A stretch of DNA of 25,830 nucleotides from a virus. Shown piece by piece: positions 3,396 to 9,288 of this stretch. How positions within the stretch are numbered: position 1 is the stretch's first letter; each line of letters starts with the position of its first letter. Below the pieces are notes generated by a model. It had not been told where the DNA came from. It did not search any database and was given only the letters and a program-made list of their open reading frames with translations. A program made the translations under genes and the position numbers. The stretch lies in IMG/VR virus record IMGVR_UViG_3300017605_000304, positions 1 to 25,830 of that record; one strand, written 5' to 3'.

Positions 3396-3983
3396 TTAGG
3401 CTTCTACGGCACTAAAGGTAGGAATTGTGGCGATGGCCGGCTTTGGTGTAACTGCCGGCTTTTTCGGAGTTGCCGTCTTTACCGGAGTTGCTGCCTTTGT
3501 CGCTGTTGTCCGTTTTGCAGGCGTTTTTGCGGGAACGGGTACTGTTGTGGCTTTCGCCACGCTAGGTACCTTTTCTACCACTTTTTGCGTTGTGTCCTTC
3601 ATAGCCAAAATGAGCATTCCGACTATAGATGGGAAGTCTACCACAAATGGGTAAGGTTTGGCGATATACCACGGTTGTCCGTTTCGCAACGCTTGCTCAT
3701 AAATGTGGTATCCGCTCATCCCAAAAGCGATAATTGCTACCAATCCGAGCCCAATCCACACGAATACTTTAGAAAGCCACCTTTTGAGCGGAAGGTAGCT
3801 AATCGTGTGAATGGTCCCAAAAAGGACAATTACCGGAAAGACTGCATAAGCAACAGGTTCCGCGCTAAGCGCCGTAGAACGGACATTAGAGAAAATCGAC
3901 ATAACTAGGGTAAGTCCGACAAGTACCGATCCCCAGAATCGTCCCTTTTGATACCGTGTACGCGGAATGCGCAGAAGATCCAT
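3396..3983 (-). CDS. DUF2637/SpdB-like membrane protein with basic tail
   Basis: 195 residues from the ATG at 3983-3981. Four hydrophobic segments lie at about 17-33, 43-63, 72-94 and 112-128. The third and fourth, joined by GYHIYEQALRNGQPW and followed by PFVVDFPSIVGMLI, match the DUF2637 pattern (helix, short amphipathic link, P-x-x-V-D, helix), a family found in actinobacterial plasmid spread (SpdB) and phage proteins. Residues 136-185 are a low-complexity Ala/Lys/Pro/Thr tail resembling histone H1, probably cytoplasmic and able to bind nucleic acid. It is the largest gene of the leftward array. Family assignment is by motif memory, with no search done. Confidence 0.65.
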   Translation of the reverse strand: MDLLRIPRTRYQKGRFWGSVLVGLTLVMSIFSNVRSTALSAEPVAYAVFPVIVLFGTIHTISYLPLKRWLSKVFVWIGLGLVAIIAFGMSGYHIYEQALRNGQPWYIAKPYPFVVDFPSIVGMLILAMKDTTQKVVEKVPSVAKATTVPVPAKTPAKRTTATKAATPVKTATPKKPAVTPKPAIATIPTFSAVEA

Positions 3984-3993
3984 TTTAGGCCCC

Positions 3994-4056
3994 TTTCAGG
4001 TAGGGAAAGCACAGAACGGTATAGTTAGTACCGTTCTGCACTTTTTCTACCTGAAA
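3994..4056. repeat. Nested intergenic palindrome, copy A7
   Basis: The outer arms TTTCAGGTAG (3994-4003) and CTACCTGAAA (4047-4056) are exact 10-bp complements, although their sequence differs from the usual TTAGGTG/CACCTAA. The inner arms CAGAACGGTA (4012-4021) and TACCGTTCTG (4029-4038) are also exact. This copy lies in the leader of the DUF2637-like gene. Confidence 0.78.
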
Positions 4057-4196
4057 GTGCAGTAAAGTCACTGTTTAGATCTCAATGTCCGATTTCAGGG
4101 TGATTTTCCGGATTCCTCCGTCAGCGTCCCCTCGGCCGCTACCATTCTATTGTAACACACTCAAATCGGGCAATTGTTAGAATATTCGCAATTCCC
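4057..4196 (-). promoter_or_regulatory. Leader and likely promoter of the leftward block 1
   Basis: No gene here. On the minus strand an extended -10, TGTTACAAT, occurs at 4157-4149, preceded by GATTTGAGTG, which resembles the context of the -10 at 6361-6369. The CRP-like site at 4200-4215 lies about 50-60 bp upstream of that -10, a usual activating distance. No clear -35 is seen, which fits an activator-dependent promoter. Transcription would enter palindrome A7 and then the DUF2637-like gene. Confidence 0.45.
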
Positions 4197-4301
4197 CTAT
4201 GTGATCTGTGTCACACCCGATACGCTAGCTAAGAGTAGTAAGAGTAGAATGCAATAGATTAAGCAGTTCCATGCTATTGCATCCCCTTCGCGTTGGTTCA
4301 T
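4197..4301 (-). CDS. 34-residue single-span membrane peptide
   Basis: From the ATG at 4301-4299 the frame reads MNQREGDAIAWNC and then a hydrophobic helix (LIYCILLLLLLAS, residues 14-26), ending at the TAG at 4199-4197. A perfect AAGGAG lies eight bases upstream. Short charged N-terminus, one membrane helix and a small C-terminal tail are typical of phage toxin-like, holin-accessory or membrane-modulating peptides, but no family can be named. Its last codons overlap the CRP-like site at 4200-4215. It sits between the second and first repeat styles of the array. Confidence 0.6.
   Translation of the reverse strand: MNQREGDAIAWNCLIYCILLLLLLASVSGVTQIT
4200..4215. promoter_or_regulatory. CRP/GlxR-type palindrome 1
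   Basis: TGTGATCTGTGTCACA fits TGTGA-N6-TCACA exactly. This is the consensus bound by CRP-family regulators, including actinobacterial Crp, GlxR and Cmr. It overlaps the end of the 34-residue gene and lies upstream of a leftward extended -10 at 4149-4157. Confidence 0.65.
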
Positions 4302-4316
4302 GCTGTTTTCTCCTTA

Positions 4317-4696
4317 ATGTACGGATATAAACTGTCTGCCCAAGTTTGTCCGTTTTAGAGATGATGAATCGTGCTATGTGCGCTGATTTCGTACAATAGC
4401 TCTTTAGTCGCCTGAACCGACGCATATGCATCCGGATAGGTGAATTTCAGGCTACACCACACATACAGTGCAGATCCATCTAAAGCCGACATTTGGTACG
4501 GAAGTGATGGATCGTACTTTTCCATCGGATTGTTGACGATGTGCCACAATATCGTGACATGTCCGCTTTGTCCGATAAAGAAGTCATTTGACTGATTCGT
4601 ACTACTTCCATCCCAATTGTCCCCGTATCCTACGGGAAGAGATGAATTGTCCATTTTGCCCCTCACTGTCTGGGCAGACAGCATATAACCGTACAT
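4317..4696. repeat. Gene-enclosing inverted repeat, cassette B1
   Basis: The arms at 4317-4341 and 4672-4696 are inverted copies, 22 of 25 matching, and enclose the gene at 4355-4654. The right arm overlaps the left arm of the next cassette by three bases. A tight hairpin CTGTCTG-GG-CAGACAG also overlaps the right arm. Confidence 0.72.
4355..4654 (-). CDS. Hypothetical protein, 99 aa
   Basis: I start at the ATG at 4654-4652 because GAGGGG lies four bases upstream in the array's usual leader form; an upstream extension to 4723 would run through the inverted-repeat arm. The N-terminus is Gly/Ser/Asn-rich (PVGYGDNWDGSSTNQSND) and the rest is mixed, with aromatic clusters (YVWCSLKFTYPDAY). It could be a small globular alpha/beta protein. 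No family recognised. Enclosed by cassette repeat B1. Confidence 0.6.
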   Translation of the reverse strand: MDNSSLPVGYGDNWDGSSTNQSNDFFIGQSGHVTILWHIVNNPMEKYDPSLPYQMSALDGSALYVWCSLKFTYPDAYASVQATKELLYEISAHSTIHHL

Positions 4697-5102
4697 GTGC
4701 GGATATAAGAGGATATGACCCAAGATGTCCGATTAGTACTAAACTTCCTGAATGAAGAATTCGGTATCGTATGAGTCGTTAAAGGTGGTATCTTCCCATT
4801 GGTCCGGATCGTTCATAATACCCGGATCATCATGAATGTCGCGAATGTCCGCTTCTAGTGCGGACCAATTATCCATTTCGTACTCTTCCGCTTCATTCAT
4901 CTCATTCTGGACCCATTTGAGCAAATTGGTAATAGCTTGCGCAAACGTCCTTTCTTCGCCCAAAATGACCTCAATGGGAGACATGCATGGATCTGCGGAC
5001 GTATCCATCTTATCCGTCAAATCCCACTCAGTATAACCGTAAGTCCACATTTTCTACTCCATTTTGGTGAACTCAGGTCATATCCTCATAAATCCGTACA
5101 TG
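4694..5102. repeat. Gene-enclosing inverted repeat, cassette B2
   Basis: The arms at 4694-4720 and 5076-5102 match at 24 of 27 positions in inverted orientation. They enclose the gene at 4739-5050. Neighbouring arms of B1 and B3 overlap its ends by three and five bases. Confidence 0.75.
4739..5050 (-). CDS. Acidic hypothetical protein, 103 aa
   Basis: Starts at the ATG at 5050-5048, with GGAG seven bases upstream. Strongly acidic, with a helix-forming centre (AQAITNLLKWVQNEMNEAEE) followed by Asp-rich segments (DIRDIHDDPG, DPDQWEDTTFND). No cysteines essential for a motif and no membrane segment. Function unknown; an acidic protein-interaction role is possible. Enclosed by cassette repeat B2. 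Confidence 0.62.
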   Translation of the reverse strand: MWTYGYTEWDLTDKMDTSADPCMSPIEVILGEERTFAQAITNLLKWVQNEMNEAEEYEMDNWSALEADIRDIHDDPGIMNDPDQWEDTTFNDSYDTEFFIQEV

Positions 5103-5461
5103 TAACGTTAGACTGGCATGTCTCATATGACTGGAATTATCCGATATGCCCGATTTGTCCAACTTCCCACAGGTATGCGAACTCTACCTGCTCTTGTGCG
5201 GGAATGTTATTCTTTCTGGCATATGGACACTGTTGCAACCAATTGACCGTTACCTTGTTTTCGCCCGATATTCTCTCAATGACCACTCCGAGACAAATGT
5301 CGGTAAAGATAGGGTTGTCCGATTCGGCATCCCATGCGTGGATAACGCATGGATTGTGTATTCCGTCCGGTTCTAGCTTGGTTACGAGTGTTCCGTCCAT
5401 GATTGGCATAGTTTCTCCCTATTGTCCGTTTTGAGAGACATGCCAGTTTAGCGCTACATGT
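5098..5461. repeat. Gene-enclosing inverted repeat, cassette B3
   Basis: The arms at 5098-5124 and 5435-5461 match at 24 of 27 positions in inverted orientation and enclose the gene at 5137-5409. Both arms carry the short TTAGAC/TTTAGC-like core seen in several cassettes. Confidence 0.75.
5137..5409 (-). CDS. Hypothetical protein, 90 aa
   Basis: Starts at the ATG at 5409-5407 with AGGGAG about five bases upstream. An internal ATG three codons in is possible. The sequence is mixed alpha/beta: GTLVTKLEPDG, then CVIHAWDAESDNPIF, and LGVVIERISGENKVTVNWL, which looks like two antiparallel strands with a turn. It holds three cysteines without a C-x2-C pattern. No family recognised. Enclosed by cassette repeat B3. 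Confidence 0.6.
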   Translation of the reverse strand: MPIMDGTLVTKLEPDGIHNPCVIHAWDAESDNPIFTDICLGVVIERISGENKVTVNWLQQCPYARKNNIPAQEQVEFAYLWEVGQIGHIG

Positions 5462-5614
5462 ACCCCTAAATCCCTCCCCCTCCCACTATGTTCCACCTGT
5501 GGTGGGTTTGTCTAGAGGCTGCCGACTTTTTGTGAAATGTCCAATTCTTTAGGACGTTATACGCCCTTCCCTAAGGAATCGGACAAGTCGGATTTGTGCT
5601 ACTTGTCCGTCTTG
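5462..5614. other. Palindrome-dense gap between cassettes
   Basis: No gene. It holds CCACCTGTGGTGG (5493-5505, self-complementary ends), the second copy of the 36-bp repeat, an inverted repeat 5539-5553/5570-5584 (13 of 15), and GGACAAGT/ACTTGTCC at about 5581-5608. It breaks the otherwise back-to-back cassette series between B3 and B4 and may be a control or former cassette site. Confidence 0.5.
5520..5555. repeat. 36-bp direct repeat, copy 2
   Basis: Matches 871-906 at about 32 of 36 positions in the same orientation. The GACTTTT stem of copy 1 is only partly kept here (GACTTTT/AAATGTC). It lies in the gene-free gap between cassettes B3 and B4. Confidence 0.65.
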
Positions 5615-5943
5615 CTAGGAAATGTACTCTTTGTCAGGCATGTCCGTTTTGCACTATTTAGGAGTTATATACCCTATTGGCCCATTCGACCTGATTTTCG
5701 CCGAAACGCTCGATTTGTACCTTAAGTGCGATTAGCACCTCTTGTTCCAAATCGGTGGGAATGCCCGCATTGACCAGAGCCTTCCGAAATGCCTGATATG
5801 GGTAGTCTAGGTCGATCTGAGCCATTTCGCCCAGTCCTTCCCGAATGTCCATTTCGAGGCTTTCGTCTGCAAAGCCCATTACGTCCATTTTGTCTCCTTT
5901 GTCCGATACGTCGGACATGCCTGATAAGGAGCACATTTCCTAG
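5615..5943. repeat. Gene-enclosing inverted repeat, cassette B4
   Basis: The arms at 5615-5646 and 5912-5943 match at 29 of 32 positions in inverted orientation, the longest pair. They enclose the gene at 5658-5888. The right arm ends on the first base of the next cassette's left arm. Confidence 0.78.
5658..5888 (-). CDS. Acidic hypothetical protein, 76 aa
   Basis: Starts at the ATG at 5888-5886, directly after the standard leader AAAGGAGACAAA. Acidic N-terminal half (MDVMGFADESLEMDIREG) and a helical C-terminal half (QAFRKALVNAGIPTDLEQEV, IALKVQIERFGENQ). In the N-terminal half Asp or Gly falls on nearly every third codon, following the 9-bp nucleotide period. Function unknown. Enclosed by cassette repeat B4. 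Confidence 0.62.
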   Translation of the reverse strand: MDVMGFADESLEMDIREGLGEMAQIDLDYPYQAFRKALVNAGIPTDLEQEVLIALKVQIERFGENQVEWANRVYNS

Positions 5944-6270
5944 ATGTCGGGATTCAACCCCATATGTCCGGATTGTCCGATTTGTCCTAGTTGGCTAGGA
6001 TTCGGGGGATTCTACCCATATAGTCGGCAAAGCCACCAAATGTCATGACAACAGAGGGATCGTCCGCAATGTCTAGCATGTCCTGTGTTTCCTCATTTGG
6101 GAAGAATGCCTGATCTGCCTCATTCTTCTCATTTGTCACGAAATGTCCGATTTGCGGTAGTCCGCACACATTGTCGTAGTAAAGCACCTGATGTACGGAA
6201 TATCGTGCTTTGGCCATTTTGTCCTCCTATGTCCGTTTTATCCAGACATATGAGGATGATTCCCGACATC
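5943..6270. repeat. Gene-enclosing inverted repeat, cassette B5
   Basis: The arms at 5943-5971 and 6242-6270 match at 25 of 29 positions in inverted orientation and enclose the gene at 5987-6217. This is the most divergent pair. Confidence 0.7.
5987..6217 (-). CDS. Hypothetical protein, 76 aa
   Basis: Starts at the ATG at 6217-6215 with AGGAGG seven bases upstream. Basic and aromatic N-terminus (MAKARYSVHQVLYYDN) and an acidic middle (NEKNEADQAFFPNEETQDML). No motif recognised. It is the first gene downstream of the leftward promoter region at 6275-6440 and is enclosed by cassette repeat B5. Confidence 0.62.
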   Translation of the reverse strand: MAKARYSVHQVLYYDNVCGLPQIGHFVTNEKNEADQAFFPNEETQDMLDIADDPSVVMTFGGFADYMGRIPRILAN

Positions 6271-6459
6271 TCCACTATTGAGTTGATAAGAGACGATTTG
6301 AGGGGGTTTCGCCCGATTGCCCGGTTCCTCCTCGTTTGTCCGTTCTGCCCTACTACCTCCAGTATACCACACCCTATATCCGAAATGTCCGAATTATCAT
6401 CATATTTCAGGGAGAAGTTGATCTGTGATCTTCGTCACACCGAAATATCCGTCATTTCC
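6271..6459 (-). promoter_or_regulatory. Leftward promoter region 2 with conserved leader
   Basis: On the minus strand an extended -10, TGGTATACT, lies at 6369-6361, preceded by GATATAGGGTG. The CRP-like site is 6424-6439. Downstream of the -10, positions 6275-6321 form a leader block nearly repeated at 8548-8594 (about 40 of 47 bases). No gene is visible. This should drive the leftward genes starting with 5987-6217. Confidence 0.5.
6424..6439. promoter_or_regulatory. CRP/GlxR-type palindrome 2
   Basis: TGTGATCTTCGTCACA fits TGTGA-N6-TCACA exactly. It is preceded by GTTGATC, as is site 3 at 8785. It lies about 60-65 bp upstream of the leftward -10 at 6361-6369. Confidence 0.65.
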
Positions 6460-6499
6460 GATATAGTAGCTTTAGACCGTCATGTCCGTTTTGGTATGG

Positions 6500-6652
6500 T
6501 TAGTCCGTATTGCAGAAAAAGCCCGGAACGCCCGAAATTTCGTATCCGCACCCAAAGAGAACAATGCCCTTGTTTGTCCCGTTATAGACTCTTATGTTCC
6601 ACAACGTGACAAATGTCAGGATTAGGACGATTGTCCAAATTGCCCTCTTCAT
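6500..6652 (-). CDS. Small secreted or membrane-anchored protein, 50 aa
   Basis: From the ATG at 6652-6650, overlapping the upstream TGA as ATGA, so coupled to the gene at 6649-6849. It reads MKRAIWTIVLILTFVTLW, a charged start plus a hydrophobic helix (residues 5-18), then a short polar part with two cysteines (Cys35, Cys47) that could be disulfide-bonded outside the cell. It ends at the TAA at 6502-6500. No lipobox. Signal anchor or signal peptide are both possible. Function unknown. Confidence 0.6.
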   Translation of the reverse strand: MKRAIWTIVLILTFVTLWNIRVYNGTNKGIVLFGCGYEISGVPGFFCNTD

Positions 6653-6849
6653 GCCGATACGTACCTTGGATAGGCATTTCGGTGCATAAGGTACGATTTC
6701 TCCGCTAAGCGAAGTTCGTCCTCTATGACCTCAATGTCCGGTTCGTCCAGAATGTCCAAAATGCCAAAAACGTCGAATTTGTCTAACATGTCCATTTTGT
6801 TACGAAATTCCCTTTCGTCCAAAATGTCCTGATAGTTCATTCTAGGCAT
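6649..6849 (-). CDS. Acidic hypothetical protein, 66 aa
   Basis: I start at the ATG at 6849-6847, preceded by AAAGGAG with seven bases spacing; an upstream frame extension runs into the repeat arm. The centre is rich in repeated Asp-Ile/Leu (DILDE, MDMLDKF, ILDILDEPDIEV), which follows from the GTCC/GGAC-type 9-bp period and may still form an acidic helix. The C-terminus is basic and aromatic (SYLMHRNAYPRY). Function unknown. Coupled to the membrane peptide downstream. Confidence 0.6.
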   Translation of the reverse strand: MPRMNYQDILDEREFRNKMDMLDKFDVFGILDILDEPDIEVIEDELRLAEKSYLMHRNAYPRYVSA

Positions 6850-6905
6850 GTTTGTACTCCTTTGTCCGTTTTGTACGGACATGACGGTTTAGAGCTACTA
6901 TATCC

Positions 6906-7269
6906 GATATACCCGTTTTAGACTGGCATGTCCGTTTTGCATTACTTTACAGTGATTTTACCGTTTTGGAGCTTTTCGACCGTCGCGTACCATTTGCGGT
7001 TGTTGTACGGGTTTGGACCGGTAACGGAGTATTTGACCCCAATGACCAAATTGTCCGCACTGCCCGTAAAGGGCGTATGGTCCGAAGTGCCGTATACGAC
7101 CACATCATCCGGATTTGCCTCAATTGCCCGCTTTAGGGCAGCTTTGGTAGGAATGTCCTTTCCGTCCGATCTGTTCTGTACGCCCACATTTACGTAGCTT
7201 GCCACGTTTTGCTCCTTATGTCCGATTTGTGTTTTAATGTCGGACATGCCAGTTTAGAACGGGTATATC
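6906..7269. repeat. Gene-enclosing inverted repeat, cassette B7
   Basis: The arms at 6906-6934 and 7241-7269 match at 27 of 29 positions in inverted orientation and enclose the gene at 6942-7205. Both arms hold TTTAGA in the plus orientation, which accounts for both mismatches. Confidence 0.78.
6942..7205 (-). CDS. Hypothetical beta-rich protein, 87 aa
   Basis: I start at the GTG at 7205-7203 because AAGGAGCAAAAC lies directly before it, whereas the ATG at 7247 lies inside the inverted-repeat arm. The product begins MASYVNVGVQNRSDG. It has a helix (TKAALKRAIEANPDD) followed by VVVYGTSDHTPF and LVIGVKYSVTGPNPYN, then KWYATVEKLQNGKITV, a possible alpha-plus-beta fold. The helix-turn-strand pattern could bind DNA or protein, but no family is recognised. 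Enclosed by cassette repeat B7. Confidence 0.65.
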   Translation of the reverse strand: MASYVNVGVQNRSDGKDIPTKAALKRAIEANPDDVVVYGTSDHTPFTGSADNLVIGVKYSVTGPNPYNNRKWYATVEKLQNGKITVK

Positions 7270-7271
7270 AT

Positions 7272-7601
7272 GAATCATCCGGTTATAAATGGGTATGTCT
7301 CGTTCTGTCCGATTTTAGGCGGTTTGTGACCTTTCGAGTACCATGCGACGATGATCCCGAATTGTCTGTAATGCCCTACTTGTGGCAAGTTGGTCGTCTT
7401 CGTCCTCTATGCCCGATTCGACCACTTTGTCCCATATCATTTGGAATGTCCAAGTTACCAGCATTTCTGCCTTTATGGCCGCAAAGACCGCTTTGTGCAC
7501 CTTTGGGCTTCTTGTCCATAGATATGGCATTTGCACCGTTTTGGCCATTTCGTCTCCTATGTCCGTTTTGGGAGACATACCCATATATGACCGGATGATT
7601 C
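7272..7601. repeat. Gene-enclosing inverted repeat, cassette B8
   Basis: The arms at 7272-7301 and 7572-7601 match at 28 of 30 positions in inverted orientation and enclose the gene at 7315-7548. Two bases separate it from B7 and three from B9. Confidence 0.8.
7315..7548 (-). CDS. Hypothetical helical protein, 77 aa
   Basis: Starts at the ATG at 7548-7546, after the standard leader GGACATAGGAGACGAA. Predicted mostly helical: SPKVHKAVFAAIKAEMLVTW, FQMIWDKVVESGIEDEDD and TSRALQTIRDHRRMVLERS. The basic C-terminal helix could contact nucleic acid, but no helix-turn-helix is clear. Function unknown. Enclosed by cassette repeat B8. Confidence 0.65.
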   Translation of the reverse strand: MAKTVQMPYLWTRSPKVHKAVFAAIKAEMLVTWTFQMIWDKVVESGIEDEDDQLATSRALQTIRDHRRMVLERSQTA

Positions 7602-7604
7602 TAA

Positions 7605-7889
7605 ACAATCCAGGTTTAGACGCATATGTCCGATTTGGTTACTTTTAGGCGTCTTCGACCAGTTTGATCACAATGTCCGAATCGTGCATATAGTCCTCTA
7701 TGAGAAAACTGCGATCATTGCGAAGAATGTCCTCAATCTCCTCTTTGAGTACTATGTCCACATTGTCGAATCTGTCCGCTTCTGTCTCGATTAGTACCCA
7801 AATGTGAACTTTGCCGTTTTCGTCCACATATTCCATTTTTGTCTCCTATGTCCGTTTTGGCCGGACATATGCGTTTAGACCTGGATTGT
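7605..7889. repeat. Gene-enclosing inverted repeat, cassette B9
   Basis: The arms at 7605-7632 and 7862-7889 match at 26 of 28 positions in inverted orientation and enclose the gene at 7645-7836. Between the ribosome site and the right arm a second ATGTCCG faces the arm's CGGACAT, giving a local hairpin next to the ribosome site. Confidence 0.8.
7645..7836 (-). CDS. Acidic hypothetical protein, 63 aa
   Basis: Starts at the ATG at 7836-7834 after GGACATAGGAGACAAAA. Begins MEYVDENGKVHIWVLIETEA, which looks like a beta hairpin, then acidic helices (IVLKEEIEDILRNDRSFLIED). The product is strongly acidic. No family recognised. Enclosed by cassette repeat B9. Confidence 0.62.
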   Translation of the reverse strand: MEYVDENGKVHIWVLIETEADRFDNVDIVLKEEIEDILRNDRSFLIEDYMHDSDIVIKLVEDA

Positions 7890-7892
7890 CTG

Positions 7893-8229
7893 GATAATCC
7901 GGTTATGGGGTGTATGTCCGATTTGCACTATCTGTCTAAATTGCGCCGATTTTCCACGGTTCGACCTCTATGAGCGTTTCGCCCACAATGCCCACTACGT
8001 TCCAATCGTCGTCTATGACACATTCGCGCATAATGACCGTATTGCCCAGATTGGGTAGTTCGACCACTATGTACAGTTTGTCCTCATTGTCCGGAGTGAG
8101 CATAAACTCCTCATATCCGACGATTGTCCCAAATTCGACCCGAAAGTCGTCTTTGTCCAAATAGTACGTAGTTTCCATTTTGTCTCCTATGTCCGATTCG
8201 GCGGACATACACCCTATGACCGGATTATC
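7893..8229. repeat. Gene-enclosing inverted repeat, cassette B10
   Basis: The arms at 7893-7920 and 8202-8229 match at 26 of 28 positions in inverted orientation and enclose the gene at 7936-8178. Confidence 0.8.
7936..8178 (-). CDS. Hypothetical beta-rich acidic protein, 80 aa
   Basis: Starts at the ATG at 8178-8176, after GGACATAGGAGACAAA; a longer frame to 8262 would cross the repeat arm. The strands VEFGTIVGYEE, KLYIVVELPN, TVIMRECVIDDDWNVVGIVG and TLIEVEPW suggest a small barrel. It lies in the clearest 9-bp-periodic stretch: sixteen successive 9-mers in one phase from 7963 all begin with G on the plus strand. Function unknown. Enclosed by cassette repeat B10. Confidence 0.65.
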   Translation of the reverse strand: METTYYLDKDDFRVEFGTIVGYEEFMLTPDNEDKLYIVVELPNLGNTVIMRECVIDDDWNVVGIVGETLIEVEPWKIGAI

Positions 8230-8237
8230 CGATCTGT

Positions 8238-8530
8238 CTCTCAAGTCCCCTATGTCCGGCATGTCCGCTTTTGCTTAGATCTGACCGGTTAGGAAGGCTT
8301 TCTCCAGTTTCACCAAGTTTGTCTTGGTTTCGACTAGCTTGTCCAGTTTCGCCGTGATTTGTCGTACTGCGTCCTGGAATGTCGTGATATCATCCCGAAT
8401 GTCCAGGTTTAGCACGTCTTGGGAGATTTCGTCTAGATCTGCGTTGAAATGTCCCGCAATGGCGTCTTTGTCCATCTTTGTCTCCTTATGTCCGTTTTGT
8501 CGGACATGCCGGATATGGGAGACTTGAGAG
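8238..8530. repeat. Gene-enclosing inverted repeat, cassette B11
   Basis: The arms at 8238-8267 and 8501-8530 match at 27 of 30 positions in inverted orientation and enclose the gene at 8275-8475. It is the last gene-bearing cassette, next to the control region. Confidence 0.78.
8275..8475 (-). CDS. Coiled-coil-like hypothetical protein, 66 aa
   Basis: Starts at the ATG at 8475-8473, after GGACATAAGGAGACAAAG. Almost wholly helical with heptad-like hydrophobics (VLNLDIRDDITTFQDAVRQI, AKLDKLVETKTNLVKLEKAF), so a short coiled coil or oligomeric helix bundle is likely. It is the first gene of the leftward array downstream of promoter region 3 and so is probably the most strongly expressed. Function unknown. 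Enclosed by cassette repeat B11. Confidence 0.65.
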   Translation of the reverse strand: MDKDAIAGHFNADLDEISQDVLNLDIRDDITTFQDAVRQITAKLDKLVETKTNLVKLEKAFLTGQI

Positions 8531-8784
8531 CTTTGCCCTGTCTGTCGCTATTGAGTTGAAAAGTGACGATTTGGGTTGGTTTCACCGGTTTGCCGGAAGT
8601 GTCCGGTATTTCCGTTCCGCCCCCTTGGTGCACCTTCAGTCTAGCATAGCCCGGTCTGTGCTACTATGTCGTATATGTCCGTTTTATGGTCATATAGCAG
8701 GGCAAGTTTTGACCCACTATATTAGTACAAATCCGGACATATACGATATATACGGGCAGAACGGGGCAAATGGGGATGTTGATC

Positions 8785-8800
8785 TGTGACGTACGTCACA
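8785..8800. promoter_or_regulatory. CRP/GlxR-type palindrome 3
   Basis: TGTGACGTACGTCACA is a perfect 16-bp palindrome and fits TGTGA-N6-TCACA. As at site 2 it is preceded by GTTGATC. It lies upstream of the leftward array. Confidence 0.68.
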
Positions 8801-8881
8801 CTGACCCACTATATGGTGATATGTCCCATATGCCCGTTTCAATATGCCCCTTATATGGGCATATATCCGGACATACCGGAC

Positions 8882-8897
8882 TGTGATGTACGTCACA
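8882..8897. promoter_or_regulatory. CRP/GlxR-type palindrome 4
   Basis: TGTGATGTACGTCACA fits TGTGA-N6-TCACA exactly, 97 bp from site 3 centre to centre (about nine helical turns), so the two could be bound on one face of the DNA. Confidence 0.66.
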
Positions 8898-9203
8898 CTG
8901 TGAGGTATATGATGATATGCCCCTTATATGTGGATATAGGGTAATATGTCCGTTTTGCGATGATTGTGCGTGTCCGGATTATGAGTAAATAAGATGATAT
9001 ATTAACTATATTATGAAATAAGATGATAAATTGGACATTTTGGCAGGTTCCACGTAGATCTAAGATGAAAAGAAGTGTTAGTGAATTGACATAGTAATAA
9101 ATCGATTATTCTTAGATTCAACGAGGATTGGCTGTAAAAAGAAGTGTTAACAAATTGACAGTATTATAAGCATATAATTGAAAATAATGTGATTTAGTGA
9201 AAT

Positions 9204-9223
9204 TGTGTCAGTGTCTTGACACA
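9204..9223. promoter_or_regulatory. Palindromic operator-like site
   Basis: TGTGTCA (9204-9210) and TGACACA (9217-9223) are perfect 7-bp arms with a 6-bp spacer. The site abuts the -35 of the putative late promoter at 9231, a usual place for a repressor or activator dimer. Confidence 0.5.
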
Positions 9224-9230
9224 TCAATAG

Positions 9231-9259
9231 TTGACGCATGATGTGGGTACTGCTACTCT
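9231..9259 (+). promoter_or_regulatory. Putative late-operon promoter
   Basis: TTGACG (9231-9236), a 17-bp spacer, then TACTCT (9254-9259) preceded by TGC, an extended -10. Transcription would start near 9266, about 23 bases before the ATG at 9289, leaving room for AGGAGG at 9276-9281. Confidence 0.5.
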
Positions 9260-9288
9260 GTTCTTGAGGACTCTTAGGAGGTGAACAC

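Follow-up and report, generated by a model that had tools for sequence, protein, structure and literature searches.

Organization of the leftward gene array

The window analyzed here is the whole 25,830-nucleotide stretch of the uncultivated virus record IMGVR_UViG_3300017605_000304, and between positions 4317 and 8530 it carries a row of small leftward genes, each enclosed by its own inverted-repeat pair (B1–B11). B6 encloses two overlapping genes. An all-against-all inverted-repeat search of the whole window, repeated with an independent tool, finds exactly 11 gene-enclosing pairs in this region, with 229–385 nt between the arms; the only other pair is a weaker one without a gene at 8665–8750. 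Spacers between neighboring cassettes are −5, −9, 151, −2, 188, 1, 2, 3, 2, and 7 nt, hence the arms lie back to back except around B3/B4 and B5/B6. The inner end ATGTCCG is exact in 7 of the 11 pairs, whereas B3 and B8 end in ATGTCTC, and B1 and B2 differ. Promoter-like sites (CRP-like) occur only in the few wide gaps or outside the array. An element resembling the boxA antitermination signal of ribosomal operons lies at the start of the leftward units.

Table 1. Coordinates of the cassettes and associated elements in the window (arms named in mRNA sense).
Position	Strand	Feature	Partner	Matching or detail
4317–4342	−	B1 3′ arm	4671–4696	23/26
4671–4696	−	B1 5′ arm		
4355–4654	−	gene in B1		99 aa, no family match
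4692–4720	−	B2 3′ arm	5076–5104	26/29
5076–5104	−	B2 5′ arm		
4739–5050	−	gene in B2		103 aa; orthologues in related loci L013, L015, L016 and L017, in their own stems
5096–5124	−	B3 3′ arm	5435–5463	26/29
5435–5463	−	B3 5′ arm		
5137–5409	−	gene in B3		90 aa; protein cluster of 8 cassettes
5615–5646	−	B4 3′ arm	5912–5943	29/32
5912–5943	−	B4 5′ arm		
5658–5888	−	gene in B4		ATG start at 5888
5942–5973	−	B5 3′ arm	6240–6271	28/32
6240–6271	−	B5 5′ arm		
5987–6217	−	gene in B5		76 aa
6460–6489	−	B6 3′ arm	6875–6904	28/30
6875–6904	−	B6 5′ arm		
6649–6849	−	first gene of overlapping pair in B6		66 aa
6500–6652	−	second gene in B6		50 aa; start overlaps the stop of the first
6906–6934	−	B7 3′ arm	7241–7269	27/29
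7241–7269	−	B7 5′ arm		
6942–7205	−	gene in B7		about 87 aa, GTG start
7272–7301	−	B8 3′ arm	7572–7601	28/30
7572–7601	−	B8 5′ arm		
7315–7548	−	gene in B8		77 aa; protein cluster of 9 cassettes
7605–7632	−	B9 3′ arm	7862–7889	26/28
7862–7889	−	B9 5′ arm		
7645–7836	−	gene in B9		63 aa
7892–7920	−	B10 3′ arm	8202–8230	27/29
8202–8230	−	B10 5′ arm		
7936–8178	−	gene in B10		80 aa
8238–8267	−	B11 3′ arm	8501–8530	27/30
8501–8530	−	B11 5′ arm		first stem of the array in mRNA sense
8275–8475	−	gene in B11		66 aa
8546–8572	−	boxA-like element, leftward unit 1		AAATCGTCACTTTTCAACTCAATAGCG; 15 nt before the B11 5′ arm
6273–6299	−	boxA-like element, leftward unit 2		next to the B5 5′ arm
4069–4095	−	boxA-like element, leftward unit 3		outside the array; downstream gene 3396–3983
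8785–8897		two CRP-like sites, upstream of unit 1		8785–8800, 8882–8897
6424–6439		CRP-like site, upstream of unit 2		in the B5/B6 gap
4200–4215		CRP-like site, upstream of unit 3		

The pairs lie well above chance. The 11 real pairs score 17–24, and two further weak pairs score 11, whereas 150 dinucleotide shuffles of the region reach at most 14 and average 0.007 pairs of score 14 or more. The observation of the earlier note, an array of single-gene cassettes in private inverted repeats, is therefore confirmed, and the shuffled control that the note had named in advance as a test did not reproduce it. No convincing Pfam or PHROGs match was found for the encoded proteins, and no Rfam family reached the gathering threshold in the window.

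Conservation of the helices in related phages

Related phage contigs carry the same arrangement, with 138 pairs in 32 loci and up to about 12 private helices in tandem, in which the arm sequences differ but complementarity is kept. In this phage and its relatives, nearly every small gene of a long operon is bracketed by its own matching pair. In the arrays with five or more stems, the own partner is the best partner in 94 of 94 cases (−45.7 against −24.9 kcal/mol for the best wrong partner). In addition, the unconstrained minimum-energy fold of the 4.2-kb mRNA-sense region contains all 11 stems, B2 only in part (18/29). In most of the remaining sequence of 12 relatives, no further arrays were seen, only two weak chance pairs.

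The earlier note had compared the repeats with the processing stems that flank rRNAs, but had argued from the mismatches against simple selection on the mRNA fold and for DNA-level or antisense-level selection. Its interpretation is partly supported: the rRNA-stem analogy stands well, whereas the strand argument is wrong. The tally of 29 mismatches (16 G-U in plus-strand RNA, 6 in mRNA, 7 transversions) is reproduced exactly; however, the mismatches that are G-U only in plus-strand RNA sit at two fixed central positions. Outside this core, mismatches over the 32 loci are G-U in the mRNA sense 71 to 13, biased the same way in the window clade (33:4) and in other clades (38:9). In 49 orthologous comparisons, 416 both-side changes keep pairing and 1 breaks it, while 45 one-side changes keep it and 13 break it. 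The arms are therefore kept as mRNA helices, not DNA sites.

Each helix is about 29 bp and consists of 12 bp, a C.A mismatch, 2 bp, an A.C mismatch, and 13 bp, close to two-fold symmetric. In 75 core-anchored stems, positions −10 to −1, +1/+2, and +4 to +15 pair (Watson-Crick or G-U) in 97–100% of stems, with several pair types at most positions and almost no antisense-only G-U outside the core, the mismatches of the core-bearing stems being situated at positions 0 and +3. Two unpaired positions at spacing 3 occur in 57 of 86 window-clade stems and in 19 of 52 others, and 206 of 220 central unpaired positions are C.A, A.C, or U.U. The order is C.A before A.C, with 51 C.A and 0 A.C at position 0 in the window clade and 15 to 2 elsewhere. 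Many stems in other clades lack the full core while keeping the helix. The longest unbroken Watson-Crick or G-U run is 13–14 bp in most stems and above 20 in only about 9 of 138, although some stems are unbroken over 28–33 bp. Meanwhile, the interior of the ORFs gave a mean structure z of −2.5 against −1.3 for structural genes; since the stretches were unequally selected, this value is not used as evidence.

boxA-like elements at the operon starts

The boxA-like element, which the earlier note had not noticed, precedes the first stem by a few to some tens of nucleotides. With at most 6 mismatches to a seed based on actinobacterial leaders, it is found before 19 of 32 first stems against 17 of 1920 random 90-mers (0.9%). 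A matrix made from the phage elements finds the boxA position, about −140 before the 16S gene, as its best hit in the leaders of Paenibacillus (0/500 shuffles as good), Lysinibacillus, and E. coli, the last two at weak scores, whereas two of the five rRNA leaders tested gave no boxA hit. The match to E. coli boxA alone is modest, with 24 of 2000 shuffles as good.

Searches for isolated relatives, host, and processing enzymes

The array was found in no isolate. A search of the phage collection gave no nucleotide match, the terminase stayed below 60% identity with the nearest at about 35%, and two cassette proteins had no match; Arthrobacter phage Wollypog and the parts of Ajin and Kurnik that were read show no stems. 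A terminase scan of bacterial genomes gave only two distant hits, and WhiB is absent in 16 records. No phage-encoded RNase III or RtcB was found in 16 relatives' records.

Predicted processing of the enclosed mRNAs

The array is best read as a set of leftward polycistronic operons laid out like an rRNA operon, with a boxA-like antitermination signal followed by leader–trailer-type helices, in which each gene (once, a coupled pair) is enclosed in the mRNA by its own long-range helix, closing over the leader, the ORF, and a short trailer. In this view, the private arm sequences act as addresses, so that each 5′ arm finds its own 3′ arm among many. Most likely the RNase III of the host, or a similar dimeric double-strand RNase, cuts these helices, and its 2-nt stagger would fit the 2 bp between the two central mismatches. 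Each gene would then be released as a single mRNA whose ends stay locked in the remaining inner helix of about 13 bp, with the Shine–Dalgarno sequence free between helix and start codon. The sequence evidence establishes the mRNA-sense helix, its pair specificity, the mismatched core, the back-to-back layout, and the boxA-like element, while the cutting, the enzyme, the cut position, the end protection, and actual antitermination, including NusB/NusE recruitment and read-through of terminators, are inferred from sequence alone. The helix spans more than the duplex of about 22 bp expected of an RNase III site, for which long-range pairing is allowed, albeit with two mismatches. However, published RNase III sites in E. 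coli and B. subtilis are almost always paired next to the cuts (PMC11780869), whereas here the expected cut sites touch mismatches, and the limited unbroken duplex is as expected if the stems avoided RNase III. We place the probability of this reading at roughly 0.55. A more far-reaching version, which remains tentative, is that boxA-modified RNA polymerase reads through, the address helices close each gene in turn, and a sequence-specific dimeric RNase recognizes the symmetric C-NN-A mismatch core, giving single-gene mRNAs with locked ends; such core recognition would be a new kind of RNA processing signal.

Long-range end-to-end pairing is known for rRNA precursors and a few single mRNAs. 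A whole array of protein-coding genes, each with a covarying private helix and with boxA-like elements at the operon starts, would show that phages have taken over the rRNA-operon plan for mRNAs, which would be a new way of organizing protein-coding messages. The arrays offer a natural set of well over a hundred mutually orthogonal mRNA-closing helices and make it testable whether end closure sets mRNA life and translation in bacteria; in addition, the conserved mismatched core gives a clear handle on which enzyme or protein reads it.

Comparison with known systems

The leader–trailer helices of bacterial pre-16S and pre-23S rRNA likewise form long-range helices, of about 27–30 bp in E. coli, that enclose the product downstream of boxA, with variable sequence but kept pairing and several products in one transcript (PMC10250234). 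The phage helices instead enclose small protein-coding genes with their ribosome-binding sites, form tandem arrays, and possess a stereotyped mismatched core. In phage T7, early polycistronic mRNA is divided between genes by RNase III at double-stranded elements, but these are local hairpins between genes, whereas here the two strands of each helix flank the gene. In the case of icaR of Staphylococcus aureus, the 5′ and 3′ ends of the mRNA pair over a single gene and make an RNase III substrate (PMC3868564); that short pairing blocks the Shine–Dalgarno sequence and triggers decay, whereas in the phage arrays of about 29-bp helices the 3′ arm pairs upstream of the Shine–Dalgarno sequence, which lies outside the helix. 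In Bacillus subtilis, host RNase III cuts helices whose strands lie hundreds of nucleotides apart with a 2-bp stagger (PMC11780869), but these are scattered single sites, paired around the cut, without gene-by-gene arrays. Integron cassettes and Xer pdif modules also bracket genes with imperfect inverted elements around a core; they utilize shared recombinase sites, whereas the phage arms differ between cassettes and covary as RNA.

Alternative explanations

The strongest alternative, although less likely, is that the helices form in the mRNA but are not cut, insulating and closing each gene, with the two central mismatches keeping host RNase III from cleaving a long duplex. The short unbroken runs and the paired surroundings of known RNase III sites (PMC11780869) agree with this. 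However, mere avoidance predicts any mismatch, yet the types are almost only C.A, A.C, and U.U in a fixed order, and some stems are unbroken. Furthermore, closure alone does not explain protection of ends, since without cuts there are no ends.

An unlikely alternative, which can coexist with the main reading, is a translation switch, in which the inner end of the 5′ arm pairs either with the 3′ arm (leader open) or with the leader beside or over the Shine–Dalgarno sequence (leader closed), so that only complete mRNAs are well translated. Pairing of the last 10 nt of the 5′ arm with its own leader is stronger than with other leaders of the same phage (−9.40 against −8.78, 0 of 2000 shuffles), the typical form being ATGTCCG-acaaaa-CGGACAT-AAGGAG. 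Nevertheless, the effect is small, CGGACA is a common motif in the region, no local hairpin of this kind is evident in several clades, and neither the outer half of the helix nor the core is explained.

Less probable still, the symmetric core may be the binding site of an unknown dimeric double-strand RNA-binding protein that regulates or packages these mRNAs without cutting. The two-fold symmetric mismatches, the symmetric G-U positions near them, and the strong preference for 5′-CNNA on both strands would fit, but no candidate protein was found, and many stems in other clades keep the helix without the full core.

Terminators or promoters within the arms were rejected, since spacers between most cassettes are −13 to +12 nt and the CRP-like sites lie elsewhere. 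Finally, the DNA-level readings, including the invertible cassettes, looping sites, and cassette capture raised in the earlier note, are not needed and are very unlikely: read as DNA, each pair does have inverted arms around a core in direct orientation (TNNG), as in attL/attR-like half sites after insertion of a circle into a palindromic site, and arm halves recur in different combinations in different phages, but the arms are private rather than a common recombinase site, the gene is on the same strand in all retained pairs (although the filter required this), and the 71:13 bias toward mRNA-sense G-U has no DNA-level reason.

Gene-Enclosing Inverted Repeats in the Window and in Related Contigs

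In the 25.8-kb virus record, a search of the whole window for ungapped inverted repeats, in agreement with a second search, yields exactly 11 gene-enclosing pairs, together with one weaker pair that encloses no gene. The 11 pairs score 17–24, whereas the best of 150 dinucleotide shuffles scores 14. The observation in the earlier note thus holds: its coordinates, the back-to-back layout, the coupled gene pair within the sixth pair (B6), and its count of mismatched positions (16 that remain G-U in plus-strand RNA, 6 in mRNA-sense RNA, and 7 transversions) are all right.

Related contigs in IMG/VR were reached through the terminase. Close relatives, with a terminase identity of about 75–84%, carry arrays of about 6–12 pairs in the same place, leftward and upstream of the terminase. 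More distant relatives (about 53–60%) carry shorter arrays or single pairs, with quite different and in part GC-rich arms. After filtering, which requires the long ORF to lie on the minus strand and to fill at least half of the gap between the arms, 138 pairs in 32 loci remain. A scan of most of the remaining sequence of 12 relatives gave no arrays elsewhere, only two weak chance pairs. In the phage collection, nothing matched the array DNA, and the nearest terminases are about 35% identical.

Positions of the features in the window and in other loci (L numbers denote individual loci outside the window)
Sequence	Position	Strand	Feature
Window	4317-8530		11 gene-enclosing inverted-repeat pairs
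Window	8665-8750		Weaker inverted repeat (16/17, 52-nt loop, no gene)
Window	4200, 6424, 8785, 8882		CRP-like palindromes TGTGAN6TCACA
Window	3984-4095	minus	Third leftward unit: boxA-like element and 38-nt imperfect local hairpin
Window	4300-9000		Recurrent motif TGTCCG/CGGACA and variants
Window	9088-9260		Several TTGACA boxes
L016	near 2699		Leader similar to that of the third leftward unit
L061	1763-2119		Member of cassette protein family A2
L241	217		boxA-like element
L241	1453-1920		80-nt inverted repeat (68/80)
L204 (Arthrobacter phage Wollypog, about 23238)	2239		boxA-like element TTTTGGTAACTAAATAGTG
L210	10588-12608		Repeated palindrome CTGACAGTACTGTCAG

Pairing in the mRNA Strand and Covariation

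When all pairs are read together, the mismatches that are G-U only in plus-strand RNA cluster at the center of the stem. Outside the central nine positions, mismatches are G-U in the mRNA 71 times and in the antisense 13 times, and the bias holds separately in the window clade (33:4) and in other clades (38:9). Anchoring 75 stems on the two-mismatch core gives a clear picture, in which the stem is paired from about −12 to +16, and the 2 bp between the mismatches are always paired but variable. Sense G-U pairs are situated mostly at −4 to −2, at +5 and +6, and near the outer end (−12), whereas antisense-only G-U is nearly absent outside the core. The stem ends lie about 13.5–14.5 bp from the center on both sides. 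The argument in the earlier note, that the strand preference of the mismatches speaks against selection on the mRNA fold and for DNA-level or antisense-level selection, therefore came from the core positions and reverses with more data.

The cassette proteins fall into 68 clusters, 18 of which have more than one member. Orthologous genes in different phages have different arms, each still self-complementary: 416 both-side changes keep pairing and 1 does not, while 45 one-side changes keep it and 13 break it, although these comparisons share lineages and are not independent events. In arrays with at least five stems, every 5' arm has its own 3' arm as its best partner (94/94). Furthermore, the unconstrained fold of the 4.2-kb mRNA-sense region shows all 11 stems, the second (B2) with only 18/29, whereas the antisense fold shows 9 of 11. 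Family A2 of the cassette proteins, with the consensus IRPQMMYNYxRNGLIVxG, is found at the L061 locus and in 14 relatives, across distant clades. It has no PHROGs match and, judged from its appearance alone, is a putative small DNA-binding protein.

The Mismatched Core

In 57 of 86 window-clade stems and in 19 of 52 others, two unpaired positions lie three apart near the center of the helix, mostly C.A and then A.C, with U-A and A-U between them, so that both strands then read 5'-CNNA. Of 220 central unpaired positions, 206 are C.A, A.C, or U.U, all of which fit an A-form helix. A few stems have no mismatch. The 2 bp between the mismatches equal the RNase III stagger, but published RNase III sites are paired beside the cut (PMC11780869). 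The core can thus be read either as a cutting signal or as protection from cutting. The former is preferred here, without being regarded as settled, because the mismatch types and their order are so restricted and because unbroken stems exist.

Operon Starts and Leaders

Most cassettes touch, so promoters must lie in the wide gaps or outside. CRP-like palindromes occur at four positions in the window, against 0.3 expected by chance, and in the arrays examined, they are never found inside back-to-back cassettes. These palindromes lie upstream of each of three leftward units, suggesting control by a host Crp/GlxR-type regulator. In the third leftward unit, the boxA-like element is followed by the local hairpin instead of a gene-enclosing stem. 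The weaker pair without a gene is located between the CRP-like sites and the boxA-like element of unit 1. The TTGACA boxes precede the rightward structural genes and are apparently their promoters.

Upstream of the first stem lies a conserved element with the consensus AAATCGTNNNTTNANAACTNAANAGNG, which resembles boxA of Gram-positive rRNA leaders, and an actinobacterial form was used as the seed for its search. With at most 6 mismatches, the element precedes 19 of 32 first stems, against 17 of 1920 random stretches. As an independent check, a matrix built from the phage elements was run on five rRNA leaders. The best hit was at the boxA position in Paenibacillus (0/500 shuffles as good), Lysinibacillus, and E. 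coli, the last two at scores that shuffles often reach, while Priestia and Deinococcus gave none. In the E. coli record, the boxA sequence starts 143 nt before 16S, in line with the published boxA deletion −147 to −133 (PMC10250234). A pattern of the element found 10 viral contigs in all of IMG/VR, six of them already found in this analysis to carry stems and two more with stems. However, a looser pattern also hits many phages without such stems; hence, the element is not confined to arrays. One boxA-like element is situated in the noncoding stretch after the endolysin gene of an isolated phage, Arthrobacter phage Wollypog, without stems.

The 5' arm ends a median of 26 nt before the called start codon, and the 3' arm begins a median of 12 nt after the stop. 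The leader of the window clade typically reads AAAACGGACATAAGGAG. The inner end of the 5' arm pairs with its own leader slightly better than with others of the same phage (0 of 2000 shuffles), which leaves room for a translation switch. The TGTCCG/CGGACA motif and its variants recur through arms, leaders, ORFs, and the noncoding stretch 8540-9000, well beyond the arms.

Interpretation of the Helices

The feature is a tandem set of mRNA-level helices, each closing one gene, in operons that start like rRNA operons. It would work like the leader-trailer helices of pre-rRNA, but it is not a member of that family, since it encloses mRNAs. The interpretation in the earlier note is partly supported: its comparison with the processing stems that flank rRNAs is well supported as an analogy and stands, whereas its DNA-level or antisense-level inference does not. 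The helices and their pairing rest on the sequence analysis itself, whereas processing by host RNase III is the most likely purpose but is inferred from sequence alone; a search for a phage RNase III in the records of 16 relatives found none. No report of such arrays was found in the papers searched, among which most subscription journals are missing.

Other Repeats in the Loci Examined

In L241, the 80-nt inverted repeat has internal repeats of the GATTGAGGGCA type and lies downstream of a boxA-like element. In L210, the palindrome is repeated about every 550–890 nt.
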